From contig SWDM01000016.1 of the NCBI GenBank assembly GCA_005116835.1, forward strand, positions 655,105-719,104: DNA of 64,000 nucleotides, given 5' to 3'. Position numbers and translations under genes: made by a program. The first letter of the stretch is position 1. Each line of letters begins with the position of its first letter. The notes under the pieces were generated by a model, which saw nothing but the letters and a program-made list of their open reading frames with translations, did not search any database and had not been told where the DNA came from. The stretch comes from Nitrospira sp. GTDB lineage: Bacteria > Nitrospirota > Nitrospiria > Nitrospirales > Nitrospiraceae. Positions 36,003 to 41,733 of the stretch are shown piece after piece.

Positions 36003-36120
36003 ATACCTCGCGGATCGTGGGGAGGGTTGACGACGCAACGTCAATTCTCCCCGATTCACCCTCGAGCTTGCCTATCGCTCCCTCGTTGTTCCTCCTTTTC
36101 CCGTGCTGTTACAATGCCGC

Positions 36121-38445
36121 ATGGATTCGACCCAGGCAGTCCCTCCACGTACAACCCCAGAAGTCCTATTTGCAGACGTCATAGTCCCGCGACATTTGGC
36201 AGGCCCGTTTACCTACACCGTGCCCCTGTCGCTCCAACCCACATTGCGGATTGGACATCGAGTACTCGTACCCTTTGGACGGTCGATTCTCCAGGGAGCC
36301 GTGATCGCCATTTTCCATACGCTCCCCCAAGGTCTTGATCGAGCGCGACTGAAGGAGATTCGCTCGTTACTCCCGGAAGGGCCCGCAACAGATGTGTCTT
36401 CGAAGCTGTTTCAGCTCTCACGGCAGGTGGCCGAACAGTATGTTGCTCCATGGGGGCAATGTCTCAGGTTGGTATTGCCTCCGCTGCCGAAGCCGCAAGC
36501 TGAGGTCAGCCGCTACGAACTGACAGAGCAAGGGCGGGCCGCTCTTGAAGCTCAAGAACCTTGCTCGAAGAAGATGCTGGCAGTGCTCAGACGTCTCGAT
36601 AAGAAACCCTCAGGGCGTGGCCGTTCATTTCGCAGTTCCAGTTTGGGCGATCTGTTGCATGATCTCAAAGTGCGTGGGTGGGTAGCAGAGGTTCTGAATA
36701 TTCCTCCTACCTCATCGGAACTGCTCACTCTTCCAGCCAGCCAGCCAACCTTAGCCAATTTTGGCATCACCGAGCCGACTATTCTTGATTCCGCAATGTC
36801 TTGGGCGGAGCCACTGCTCAAGGCGTTGAGAGGCCAAGGTTCCAGTCGGGTCTTGGTACAGGCTTCTTGGAATGATCGTTTGAAGCTCTTGCAGCAGACG
36901 GTTCGTTTGGTGCTCGATCGTGGGCAGAGGGTTCTTATCATCGCGGGCGAAACAGAACGAGCCCAATGGGTTGCGGACTCGATCCGCAATGACGAGACCG
37001 GCATCTCTCCGGTCTGTTTCCATAGCGGCCTTTCAGACCAAGTGAAGGCTGATGTGTGGGATCAAATTCATCGGCAGTCCGTTCGTGTGGTTGTGGGAAC
37101 CAGGTCCGCCGTCTTTCTCCCATTAACAAATATCGGAGCGATCTGGATTGAGGGAGAAGACGATACTGCGCTCAAAGAACCACAAGAGCCACGCTATCAT
37201 GCGCGGGATGTGGCCTGGTTGAGGGCGCAAGATGAGCAGGCGGTGTTGGTTCTGAGTTCGTTCCATCCGTCCCTGGAAACCAGAACATTGATGGAACAGC
37301 AAGGGGTTGTCGTGCGCAAGCTCCCACCGTCTGATGCACGAGCGAATGTACAGGTCGTTGAATTGCGTGATCATGGTTACGGCACGGTGCTGAGCCAGCC
37401 ACTCATTCGGGCCATCGGTCAAGCCATCGATCGCCGAGCCGGCGTCCTGTTGTTTCTCAATCGGAAAGGCTATGCCGGCGCCCTCGTCTGCCGTGACTGC
37501 GGCGAGGTTCCTCGCTGTTCTGCCTGTCGCGTGGCGCTGATGTATACCCGACAAGCGGGTTGTCTACTTTGCTCCTATTGCGGGGACGTAACACCCATTC
37601 CCGAGACCTGCGTCTCCTGTTCTTGCCCCCACATGCAATTTATCGGGGAGGGCACAGAGCGAGTAGAAGAGGATGCGAAGCGATTGTTTCCCCATGCATC
37701 GGTAATTCGGCTCGATGGAGATACCATGCGGCGACCAACGCAGGCGAAATCCCTCTGGCGGAGAGTCGAGCAAGGGGAATGGGATATTGTCGTCGGAACG
37801 CAAATGCTGCTGCGGCACGTACCTCTTCCGACGATTGGCCTCGTTGGGATCGTGCAGGCAGATGCGGGTCTCAGCGTGCCGGATTTCCGATCCGCTGAAC
37901 GCACCTACCACACGCTTCTTGATGCAGTCAGTCTTGCGGATCCAGCAGGGGCCGGCGGTCAGGTTTTCGTACAGACCCGCCTGTCGACTCACCATGCGAT
38001 TCGGGCGGTGGAGCAGAACGATGAAGCCATCTTCTTGTCGGAAGAGCTGTCCCATCGGAATGCATTAGGCTATCCGCCAGCAATTTACTTGATTGCCCTT
38101 CTCGTATCGGGAACTGACGAAAAGCTGGTTTACGATGCCGCAAAGTCTTGGGTGGCTCGGCTCACCGACTGCCACCTGCCCTCTGTGGCCGGACAGAGGG
38201 TTGCGGTGAAGATTTCTTCGGTGGCTCAATCGATAGATCAGCCTGACCGTCTGCTCGTTCTGGGGCCGGTCCCTTCTCCGATACCGAGACTCAGGGGGCG
38301 GTATCGGTGGCAAATTCTTGTGAAATCGCGCGATCGGGGGGCAGGCCTCGAATCGGTTCGGTTGACAGTCAGGGAGATGGAACGGGCCTATCAGCGTCGA
38401 TCCATCAAGTTCGAAGTCGATGTCGATCCGATCGAGATGTGGTAG
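36121..38445 (+). CDS. priA: PriA-like primosomal protein with degraded helicase motifs
   Basis: The 774-residue protein keeps the PriA framework: N-terminal 3'-DNA-binding domain, winged helix, helicase-like lobes and a zinc-binding region with eight cysteines (CRDC, CSAC, CLLCSYC, CVSC around residues 460-500). All ATPase motifs look lost. The Walker A GSGKT of PriA is replaced by GQGSSRVLVQASW, the DEEH box reads EGEDD (followed by the normal RYHARD), GSATP reads SSFHP, and the motif VI QVAGRAGRAG reads DAVSLADPAGAG, which removes the arginine finger. TQMLAKG is also changed to TQMLLRH. The frame is intact and long, so this is not simple decay; a protein-loading or DNA-binding role without unwinding is likely. 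ATG 36121 is chosen; GTG 36103 is possible. Confidence 0.9.
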   Translation: MDSTQAVPPRTTPEVLFADVIVPRHLAGPFTYTVPLSLQPTLRIGHRVLVPFGRSILQGAVIAIFHTLPQGLDRARLKEIRSLLPEGPATDVSSKLFQLSRQVAEQYVAPWGQCLRLVLPPLPKPQAEVSRYELTEQGRAALEAQEPCSKKMLAVLRRLDKKPSGRGRSFRSSSLGDLLHDLKVRGWVAEVLNIPPTSSELLTLPASQPTLANFGITEPTILDSAMSWAEPLLKALRGQGSSRVLVQASWNDRLKLLQQTVRLVLDRGQRVLIIAGETERAQWVADSIRNDETGISPVCFHSGLSDQVKADVWDQIHRQSVRVVVGTRSAVFLPLTNIGAIWIEGEDDTALKEPQEPRYHARDVAWLRAQDEQAVLVLSSFHPSLETRTLMEQQGVVVRKLPPSDARANVQVVELRDHGYGTVLSQPLIRAIGQAIDRRAGVLLFLNRKGYAGALVCRDCGEVPRCSACRVALMYTRQAGCLLCSYCGDVTPIPETCVSCSCPHMQFIGEGTERVEEDAKRLFPHASVIRLDGDTMRRPTQAKSLWRRVEQGEWDIVVGTQMLLRHVPLPTIGLVGIVQADAGLSVPDFRSAERTYHTLLDAVSLADPAGAGGQVFVQTRLSTHHAIRAVEQNDEAIFLSEELSHRNALGYPPAIYLIALLVSGTDEKLVYDAAKSWVARLTDCHLPSVAGQRVAVKISSVAQSIDQPDRLLVLGPVPSPIPRLRGRYRWQILVKSRDRGAGLESVRLTVREMERAYQRRSIKFEVDVDPIEMW

Positions 38446-38475: not shown

Positions 38476-38892
38476 TCACGAACCTGATGGACGGCTTTCG
38501 GTTGTGTCGGTCGATGAGCTGGTGCTGGGCCGACCGGCTCGCTTGAAGAACCCATAAGAAAAGGTTATCCAAAAGACTGCCGAGAAGAGTCCCATCAGTA
38601 CGGCTGAGAGGATTGTCCCCATTTGTTCATCGGTTGGTTCTGCCGTAGCCGAACGGAATTGAATCATCGTGATGATAGGCCAAGCAAGACTTTCCAGGCC
38701 AAGCAACAGGGTAGCCCAGGCCCAGACTAGTCCGATCGTGCGCCCTTGCCAGATTAAAAACCCTGCGACGCCTCCGGCGACCAGTGCGACTTCCCATAAT
38801 GTGAACGAGTCCCAAGCCAGCCAGGCGCCTGCTGCCACGACGAGGCTTCCAAACAGTGCATTGAGTTGGGGGCTCCACCAGGCGGTGACCAT
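38476..38892 (-). CDS. Four-helix membrane protein, unknown function
   Basis: A 138-residue protein with four predicted membrane helices (about 8-28, 33-51, 54-75 and 96-118) and a hydrophilic Ser/Thr-rich tail. It has no signature that I recognise. It lies tail-to-tail with priA, 30 bases apart, and its upstream space (38893-39141) holds nothing visible. Small multi-pass proteins of this type are frequent in this genus; function cannot be given. Confidence 0.55.
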   Translation of the reverse strand: MVTAWWSPQLNALFGSLVVAAGAWLAWDSFTLWEVALVAGGVAGFLIWQGRTIGLVWAWATLLLGLESLAWPIITMIQFRSATAEPTDEQMGTILSAVLMGLFSAVFWITFSYGFFKRAGRPSTSSSTDTTESRPSGS

Positions 38893-39141: not shown

Positions 39142-39918
39142 TCATGTTGTTCCAGGTCCTTCTACTTGTGCCGCACCAGGGCTGCCGCCTCGCCCGATAG
39201 CTTGAAAGAGCTGCGCCCGTTCTTCTCCAGAAAGCGGTTTCCAGGCGCCGGATACCAATCCTTCAAGTGTCACATGCATGATACGGACACGATGCAACGT
39301 GAGCACCCGATACCCAAGGACTTGGCACATACGCCTGATCTGTCGATTGCGTCCCTCGGTGAGGACGATACGGAATCGGGTTGGGCTGAGCCGTTCAATC
39401 CGGCAGGGCTTGGTTGGGCGGTCGAGAATATCAACCCCTTGAGCCATACGGTCGATAAAGGTTTGATCGAACGGACGATCGATAGACACCTCGTATTCCC
39501 GTTCATGTCCGTGCTCAGTACGCAGAATCTCGTTCACGATGTCCCCGTCGTTTGTGAGCAGAATAAGGCCGGATGAGTCCTTGTCGAGACGGCCAATTGG
39601 GAAGATTCGTTCCGGGTGGCCGATCTCCGCAATGATATTGCGTGGTACATGCGACTCGCTGGTCGTCGTTACACCCACCGGTTTGTAATACTTGAGATAG
39701 ACCGAGGCCGTTCCCCAGGGAATCACCTGTCCGTCTCGCGCAACTACGTCATCATGGCCGACCTGATCTCCCAAGCAGGCCGTTCGCTGATTGATGGTCA
39801 CTCGACCGGATTCGATCAGGCGATCGGCCTCTCGCCGAGAACAGATGCCGTGGTATGTGAAAAATTTATTGATGCGAAGCTTGTCGGTCACAGGGTAGCT
39901 AGCTGTTTCAGTGGACAC
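39142..39918 (-). CDS. rluF: 23S rRNA pseudouridine synthase (RluF-type)
   Basis: The 258-residue enzyme of the RsuA/RluB/E/F family converts a uridine of 23S rRNA to pseudouridine. It has an S4 RNA-binding domain (RINKFFTYHGICSRREADRLIESG) and the catalytic motif GRLDKDSSGLILLTNDGD with the nucleophilic Asp. Downstream, GRNRQIRRMCQVLGYRVLTL and RIMHVTLEGL point to RluF. The start overlaps the end of the agmatinase gene upstream by 11 bases, a sign of co-transcription. It is the last gene of the - strand cluster. Confidence 0.85.
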   Translation of the reverse strand: MSTETASYPVTDKLRINKFFTYHGICSRREADRLIESGRVTINQRTACLGDQVGHDDVVARDGQVIPWGTASVYLKYYKPVGVTTTSESHVPRNIIAEIGHPERIFPIGRLDKDSSGLILLTNDGDIVNEILRTEHGHEREYEVSIDRPFDQTFIDRMAQGVDILDRPTKPCRIERLSPTRFRIVLTEGRNRQIRRMCQVLGYRVLTLHRVRIMHVTLEGLVSGAWKPLSGEERAQLFQAIGRGGSPGAAQVEGPGTT

Positions 39919-40840
39919 GGCGGCCCGCTTTGATCCGTCCCAGTATGCGATAGATCAATCGGGCGATACAAAATTGAGGGGCGACAAACCCTTCGATTGG
40001 TGCGATCTCACTGATGTCCATTCCAAGGATGCCAGGTCCGTTAGCCAGGGCTGTGATGAGATTCAGCGTATCATACCACCCAAGCCCGCCTGGTTCAGGA
40101 GTGCCGAGCGCAGGGACCAGCGAAGCATCAAGCCCGTCGCAATCGAAAGTCAGGTATACAGGCCCGCGACAGGCCTTCACGACATCGGGAACCCATTGTG
40201 AAGCCTTGCCGTCGTAGGGGCCTGACGGATCCAAAAGCTCCGCGGCAAAGAACGTGGCAATGCGGTCGGTGCTCTTTATACGGTCGATTTCCTCTGGGGA
40301 AATGGATCGAATGCCGACTTGGACTAATGGCAACCCGTCATCGACCACACGGGCCATTACGCTGGCATGGCTATAGGGATTCCCTTGATAGGCCTGCCGC
40401 AAATCGCCATGGGCATCGATCTGCACCACGCATAGATCAGGATAGTGCCTGGCATGGGCTCGAATGGCCCCAAGTGCGCCGGTATGTTCCCCGGTCAAGG
40501 TGACGGCGAACCGCCCGGTTCCGACGTGGGGAGCGACAAATGCGTCAATCGCATCCACTGCTTGCTTGTCGACTTTGCCGCCAAGGTCGAGTGGGCGGAT
40601 AGTGGCCACTCCACCCCACTCTCGGTAGGGCTCATTCCGGAGCATCTCATCGTATAACTCGACCTGTTGCGATGCTTCGATGATTGCCGACGGGCCGCGA
40701 TCGGATCCCAGCACATAGCTGGAGGTATGTTCATAGGGTGCGGGTAAGACATAGACGCCCGCCTGATCGGGATGGCACCAAGGCTCATCGAGACCGAGGA
40801 AGTTCTGTTCGATGCCCTCCCAACCGGTGGGAAGTGTCAT
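39908..40840 (-). CDS. speB: Agmatinase-type ureohydrolase
   Basis: The 310-residue enzyme of the arginase/agmatinase family would cleave agmatine to putrescine and urea. Metal ligands are H119 (in LTGEHTGALG), D142, H144, D146 (QIDAHGDLR) and D233, D235 (TFDCDGLDAS), all present; SHASVMARV carries the substrate-loop histidine. This GEH version of the first motif is typical of agmatinases close to archaeal ones. The gene lies next to an arginine decarboxylase (40865-41431), which would supply agmatine, so the pathway arginine-agmatine-putrescine is complete. The released urea could be reused as an ammonia source. Confidence 0.88.
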   Translation of the reverse strand: MTLPTGWEGIEQNFLGLDEPWCHPDQAGVYVLPAPYEHTSSYVLGSDRGPSAIIEASQQVELYDEMLRNEPYREWGGVATIRPLDLGGKVDKQAVDAIDAFVAPHVGTGRFAVTLTGEHTGALGAIRAHARHYPDLCVVQIDAHGDLRQAYQGNPYSHASVMARVVDDGLPLVQVGIRSISPEEIDRIKSTDRIATFFAAELLDPSGPYDGKASQWVPDVVKACRGPVYLTFDCDGLDASLVPALGTPEPGGLGWYDTLNLITALANGPGILGMDISEIAPIEGFVAPQFCIARLIYRILGRIKAGRRVH

Positions 40841-40864
40841 GGGGGTATACTCACGCAGCAGAAG

Positions 40865-41431
40865 TTACCGGCGCCGCTTCGGGATATTCTCTTCTGGGAT
40901 GAACACGGCCAATGCAATCACCGTCGTCCAGCGATTGGGCTTGCCAATGGCGGATTGCGTGATGTTTTGGGTCCGCACGATTTTACCGGCCATCTTGAAG
41001 ACTTGCTCCCGCTCTTTCCATGCGATGTCCGGGTCGAACTCGACACCGAGCGTCGTGGCCAACATTTGCGCCGCCAAGTCTTCCGTATACTCACCCGTTT
41101 CCTCATCAGTTTCGCCATGGGCATGGTGTTCGGACAGATACCCATAGGTTCGACGATCCGTAGGGACTGCCACCCCAATCGATGCGGAGATCAGGCGGTT
41201 CCGCTCATTTGTTTCCGATCGCGCCATGACACAAAACGTGATTTCACCGGGATGCAACAACTTCTCTCCGCGAGTGCGTGGAACGATTTTGCAATTCGGA
41301 GGAAGAATCGACGACACAGTGACGAGGTTGCAATAGGCGACGCCGGCACTGCGCAAGGCTTGCTCGAAGGAGGCCAATTTTTCTTTGTGGACTCCGACGC
41401 CTCGCGTCAGAAACATCTGCGTAGGTACCAT
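40865..41431 (-). CDS. pdaD: Pyruvoyl-dependent arginine decarboxylase
   Basis: A 188-residue PdaD-type enzyme that makes agmatine from arginine. It is made as a proenzyme and cleaves itself between S40 and S41 ([10 protein letters not shown]) to create the pyruvoyl group; downstream [10 protein letters not shown] and the C-terminal [14 protein letters not shown] are typical. I chose 41431 because AAGGAG lies 8 bases before it, and because an upstream extension would not match the family's length. The gene lies 25 bases before the agmatinase gene on the same strand, so the two are probably one transcript. Confidence 0.88.
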
Positions 41432-41733
41432 CGTGTATTCTCCTTGGTTCGTTCGACAAATTCGGGTGACGGGTCCAGCGCCAGCGGGAAGCGCACGCCC
41501 AAAGTAAACCTCATAGAGGCATAGGGTCGCTGTTGTACCAAGATTGGCGCTGCTTCGCAATATGCCGCGTCGTTTTTCTCCAGGCGGAGGCGGAAAAACT
41601 CAGCCAGGTTTCTGGAAGGTTACGCTCAGGTTAAGACCGAGATCGAAAGAGCCGGCTCTTCGCTGAGCCCTGACCTCGATCGCAGCCCACATTATGCCTG
41701 CGGTTTCTTGCCAAACGGCCTTTGAGCATTCTG
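41432..41733. other. Spacer between pdaD and the aldehyde dehydrogenase
   Basis: About 300 bases with no gene. A perfect 14-bp palindrome AAGAGCCGGCTCTT lies at 41647-41660; it may be part of a stem-loop but there is no T-run. Confidence 0.35.

Follow-up and report, generated by a model that had tools for sequence, protein, structure and literature searches.

A full-length PriA without helicase motifs in Nitrospirales, an order whose SSB has no C-terminal tip

What is a full-length PriA kept for when every one of its helicase motifs has been replaced? The question is raised by a gene at 36121..38445 on the forward strand of a 64,000-nucleotide stretch of Nitrospira sp. DNA (hereafter the window). 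The reading frame runs from an ATG at 36121 to its stop codon with no internal stops and encodes 774 amino acids. The protein scores 377 bits against the PriA family model TIGR00595 (curated cut-off 230) and is fitted best by the general PriA models (451 bits, versus 184 for the actinobacterial PRK14873); its closest sequence match in the PDB is E. coli PriA (8fak, E 4e-69). The AlphaFold model (pLDDT 84.8, pTM 0.82) has a predicted PriA fold, and the nine top matches of a PDB fold search with this model are all PriA (6dgd, E 1e-51). A GTG at 36103 is a possible alternative start. A TACAAT element lies 5 bases upstream of the ATG (36100-36121), which would allow a leaderless transcript starting at 36121 rather than at the GTG.

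The main domains outside the motor are retained. These are the 3'-DNA-binding domain (3'BD; aa 16-120, 36166..36480; Pfam PF17764, 73.9 bits versus a cut-off of 22.7), the C-terminal domain PriA_C (aa 640-770, 38038..38430; PF18074, 59.5 bits versus 26.9) and the cysteine-rich region (CRR; aa 457-500, 37489..37620), in which all eight zinc cysteines (C457, 460, 466, 469, 484, 487, 497 and 500) are present; they are invariant in 94/94 aligned Nitrospirota PriAs and in E. coli. The preliminary description of the locus, as a full-length PriA with an intact frame and with its zinc cysteines and fold elements in place, thus agrees with the family, Pfam, PDB sequence and fold matches. No second priA was found by family and profile search in the source genome (3.94 Mb, 99.3% complete). 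The gene order nuoB-nuoA-ompA-priA-small membrane gene is conserved over the family. The last of these (38476-38892, reverse strand) is convergent with priA, has no Pfam match and adjoins priA in almost every genome of the order. Further along, at 39908-41560 on the reverse strand, an arginase-family gene and a pyruvoyl-dependent arginine decarboxylase stand beside an aldehyde dehydrogenase, likely a polyamine/agmatine cluster.

All five motifs of PriA as an active SF2 helicase (I, II, III, V and VI) are replaced. The former motif I (Walker A) is QASWNDRLK (aa 247-255, 36859..36885), where GVTGSGKTE is aligned with ASW-NDRLK: the P-loop glycines are gone, one residue is deleted, and the position of the Walker lysine (E. 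coli Lys230) is an arginine. Motif II (DEEH) has become EGED (aa 344-347, 37150..37161) and motif III (GSATP) SSFHP (aa 379-383, 37255..37269). At motif V (GTQMLAKGHHFP) the window protein has GTQMLLRHVP (aa 559-568, 37795..37824), in which GTQ is kept and the core TQMLAKG has changed to TQMLLRH. Motif VI (QVAGRAGR) is now DAVSLADPAGAG (aa 601-612, 37921..37956), the core being DAVSLADP, with Leu and Pro in place of both arginines. The earlier reading that all helicase motifs are replaced therefore stands for each of the five, with a correction for Walker A: the segment it quoted, GQGSSRVLVQA, immediately precedes the true site. The protein has the features of a Deinococcus-type pseudohelicase, with catalytic residues lost in an otherwise full-length PriA, and on its sequence it should not carry the name helicase.

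To place this loss, PriA sequences from 94 Nitrospirota genomes and E. coli were aligned. The window's order is represented by 30 genomes (the source genome and 29 others) of families f1, f2 and f3. All five motifs are replaced in 30/30 of them and in five named Nitrospirales MAGs, so the alignment, which the preliminary description had proposed as a check, shows the loss to be common to all sampled members. Two sequences of f8, a sister family in the same class, are also motor-dead: motifs II, III, V and VI are replaced, and Walker A is replaced at unchanged length, the one-residue deletion being confined to the order. In these 32 sequences together (clade A) both motif VI arginines are gone, the Walker lysine has become arginine in 27, and one motif II glutamate is conserved in 31; the former motif positions differ freely among genera.

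PriA is intact in families f4-f7, f9 and f10 of the same class. A second motor-dead group of 25 Nitrospirota sequences (families f15, f21, f23, f25-f31, f33, f35 and f38) carries replacements different from those of clade A. In a maximum-likelihood tree built without the motif columns the two dead groups are separate, requiring two state changes; a single clade comprising both survives an AU test on 39 rows (p = 0.19). At least two independent losses in Nitrospirota are favoured, if not proven, because of this tree and because taxonomy places intact families inside the same class. Beyond the phylum, 80 PriAs were retrieved by patterns outside the helicase motifs: GKT, DEE and QxxGR are present in 75/75 from other phyla and absent only in the 5 from Nitrospirales. 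No report of PriA motor loss in Nitrospirota was found in the open-access literature. The PriA pseudohelicase is a known kind of protein; the Nitrospirota case is new and more eroded, with the motifs all erased.

What such a protein may do is suggested by two precedents. The ATPase-dead E. coli mutant K230A still loads DnaB (PMC10175261), and Deinococcus radiodurans PriA, which in biochemical assays neither hydrolyses ATP nor unwinds DNA, binds ssDNA, forks and DnaB (PMC4504706). We consider it quite probable that the window gene encodes a PriA pseudohelicase that serves as an ATP-independent scaffold for fork recognition and loading and is not recruited via the SSB tip. The parts that would read the fork are the 3'BD, the winged helix, the two RecA-like lobes as a frame, the zinc region and the C-terminal domain, whose E. 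coli counterparts recognise the fork and the 3' end of the nascent leading strand. PriA would hold an abandoned fork ready, and DnaB would most likely be loaded by a DciA-type loader; DciA is encoded in the source genome and in 283/296 Nitrospirota genomes. A contact site for DnaB or DciA is not recognisable in the PriA sequence. The lagging strand would not be unwound by PriA, and the best substrates would be forks and D-loops that already expose lagging-strand ssDNA.

It had been suggested that replication restart in this organism may use another helicase. This is possible yet unsupported, and it is not required, as K230A loads DnaB. In a related form of this idea, a separate helicase (UvrD/PcrA-type, RecG or other) unwinds the lagging strand while working with the motor-dead PriA, the motor having passed to a different protein. 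Such enzymes are at hand, the source genome encoding three UvrD-family helicases and RecG, and an alternative restart route of E. coli can rely on Rep to unwind the nascent lagging strand. A separate helicase was also left open by the authors of the Deinococcus study (PMC4504706). However, UvrD-family helicases and RecG are near-universal, none of them is known to track the motor loss, nothing links them to restart, and where a fork has a gap in the lagging strand, loading does not call for unwinding. We regard a partner helicase as unlikely, although it is the alternative that we take most seriously.

The pattern of selection bears on whether the protein has a function at all. Within the genus the mean dN/dS of priA is about 0.17. 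The 3'BD has the lowest regional value (0.115), followed by HD2+CRR (0.12) and HD1 (0.16); the former helicase lobes are thus among the constrained parts. Residues G326/R328, N447-R448-G450 and F589-x3-E593 are invariant in the 32 dead and 17 intact PriAs, and the GTRSA, NRKG, GTE, DFRxAE and Q618 positions are conserved across the order despite the loss of the catalytic motifs. A pseudogene or a sequencing error is excluded by the intact frame, the order-wide occurrence and the dN/dS. The preliminary proposal that the protein has been retained for an ATP-independent role gains support from the purifying selection, the order-wide conservation, the conserved locus and the single priA; non-synonymous change is low, and there is no second intact copy.

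The same observations weigh on the possibility that priA is a relic, either diverted to a task other than replication restart or in the course of being lost. The loss of both the motor and the SSB pocket (see below) would fit such a relic, as would the case of G105, a member of the same family (genus g2, 2.0 Mb, about 99% complete, 80 contigs) in which family and profile searches found no PriA. A relic is nevertheless improbable, given the strong purifying selection, which includes the 3'BD and CRR, the conservation over the order of the eight cysteines and the domain architecture, and the conserved locus. In G105 the gene may have been truly lost from a reduced genome, or it may fall in an assembly gap; judging from this genome, PriA may be dispensable in some family members. 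PriA is also absent from G257, G173 and G239.

If PriA acts as a scaffold, the route by which it reaches the fork becomes important. The SSB-tip pocket of Klebsiella pneumoniae PriA consists of five residues, including Trp82, Tyr86 and Lys370 (PMC5531588). These three (E. coli W83, Y87 and K371) correspond in the window protein to Q102 and Q106 (36424..36438) and G395 (37303..37305); the remaining two, Arg697 and Gln701 in K. pneumoniae numbering, vary even among intact relatives. The W and Y columns are conserved in intact PriA and variable in the order. The W-Y-K set is lost throughout the order, whose PriAs do not have the pocket expected of a protein recruited by the SSB tip. In the second motor-dead clade the pocket is kept (24 or 25 of 25 at each of the three positions), an argument for selection on PriA recruitment even where there is no motor. 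Taken alone, pocket loss is not decisive and is common elsewhere: the set is missing in many Firmicutes and Myxococcota PriAs whose SSB has a tip, Staphylococcus aureus being a Firmicutes example (PMC5531588). The rare half is the loss of the tip. RecG is uninformative as a second tip-pocket test, as even tip-bearing Nitrospirota do not conserve the pocket arginines of E. coli, and RecO gives no clear pocket contrast. In most members of the order RecG has an insertion of up to about 40 aa and of varying length near E. coli residue 602, which is absent in other Nitrospirota (RecG loci L236 and L240-L252, compared with others in L224-L242). In the single-contig genome G251, recG (C1:1762921-1764940) is apparently broken by a stop or frameshift.

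The housekeeping SSB of the source genome (L124, around C22:34764-35072; among SSB loci L113-L192) has an OB-fold domain (PF00436, 128 bits versus a cut-off of 26) and ends in HDDAGFEPDEHV (-FEPDEHV), as opposed to -DDDIPF in E. coli. The acidic Pro-Phe tip is absent in 30/30 genomes of the order and in the five named MAGs; other ends within the order are YEMGEDG, YEDEQF, YEEDIPQ, YESEYYS and YYPDPMP. In contrast, SSB ends in -DVPF, -EVPF, -DIPF, -LEPF or similar in the intact relatives, in f8 and in the second dead clade. Tip loss was seen in 0/43 other Nitrospirota and in 0/18 genomes of other phyla with readable tails, all of which end in -PF. Both proteins were available from 73 genomes, of which 43 have pocket and tip, 30 have neither and none has just one; the 30 are the whole sampled order, so the count is phylogenetically one event and shows consistency rather than 73 independent trials. 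The open-access literature yielded no report of a tip-less SSB across a bacterial order. The tail that has taken its place has, in 29/30 SSBs of the order, a run of acidic residues and then an aromatic-acidic pair ([YF][ED]). A pair of this type stands right before the tip in only 1/43 tip-bearing SSBs. The sequences suggest that the new tail is a selected docking peptide, or else a remnant linker.

The tip would not be truly missing if a divergent second SSB with a canonical tip served as the hub. There is a precedent in Anabaena, where All4779, a divergent SSB with a canonical tip, takes the hub role (PMC3976300), and divergent OB folds can escape PF00436. However, the tip-less gene occupies the housekeeping position, immediately upstream of rpsR, in 8/8 loci examined, and in five loci no frame just past the ssb stop restores a tip. 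There is one PF00436 match per sampled genome of the order, except in the source genome, G139, G151 and G241, and the extra copies read in the source genome and G139 are tip-less too. A scan of the ORFs of at least 60 aa in the same-genus G159, covering about 82% of the genome (1.50 of 1.79 Mb, small overlaps included), found no acidic PF tip; three ORFs end in AF, none of them matching an SSB profile. A hidden tip-bearing SSB is accordingly very doubtful. In the source genome, the second and further SSB-type genes lie on one contig (C17; L128, L132 and L133), possibly as part of a mobile element; the closest of these copies ends in EDEHASV. As to the motor, it is scarcely credible that a rebuilt site supports some remaining or atypical ATPase activity: the arginine at the Walker lysine and the conserved motif II glutamate of clade A could be read in its favour, but the P-loop glycines and one residue are missing, Leu and Pro stand in place of the two motif VI arginines, the positions of the former motifs differ freely from genus to genus, and a K-to-R change alone abolishes the ATPase of E. 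coli PriA (PMC4504706).

For the scaffold, an order of events can be proposed. The motor would have been lost before the common ancestor of Nitrospirales and f8; the SSB docking tip and the PriA pocket would have been lost subsequently, at the root of the order. Motor loss is placed first because f8 is motor-dead yet keeps both pocket and tip. With tip and pocket gone, PriA recruitment would have to use DNA structure or another contact. A broader picture, which we put forward tentatively and rate at somewhat below an even chance, is that Nitrospirales have rewired the SSB hub: the tip would have given way to the conserved acidic-aromatic tail, and partners including PriA, here with neither motor nor tip recruitment, would have given up or rebuilt their pockets.

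With this order, nature offers a test of two textbook views: PriA as a helicase, and the C-terminal tip of SSB as a docking hub that bacteria cannot do without. The retention of a motor-dead PriA for the age of the order argues that the selected function is fork recognition and loading, not unwinding. In a tip-less order, the dispensability or replaceability of the SSB tip network becomes directly testable, and antibacterial ideas that assume a universal SSB-tip interaction call for caution.

The window PriA resembles that of D. radiodurans and other Deinococcus-Thermus (Lopper 2015, PMC4504706), which is likewise full length with catalytic residues lost; for the window protein the loss of ATPase activity is predicted from sequence. 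Both are presumed to be readers of DNA structure that contact DnaB. Deinococcus PriA keeps the frame of the P-loop, with K changed to R, whereas in the window protein all five motifs are gone and the P-loop carries a deletion; unlike the Deinococcus case, the window's order is also without the SSB-tip pocket and the SSB tip. Actinobacterial PriA (PRK14873) is divergent as well, having been described as 'smaller and very divergent' (PMC1193525). It reportedly has no helicase motifs (UniProt/HAMAP); the window protein is far nearer the general PriA models (451 versus 184 bits), and the two motor losses are presumed to be independent. The E. coli K230A and K230R proteins are ATPase-free and still assemble primosomes, as proposed for the window PriA, but they are laboratory point mutants aided by PriB, DnaT and DnaC, with pocket and tip kept. 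Finally, E. coli ssb without the last Phe or the last 8 residues is lethal (PMC10164576), whereas in Nitrospirales a tip-less SSB, with a different, conserved acidic-aromatic tail, is the natural state.
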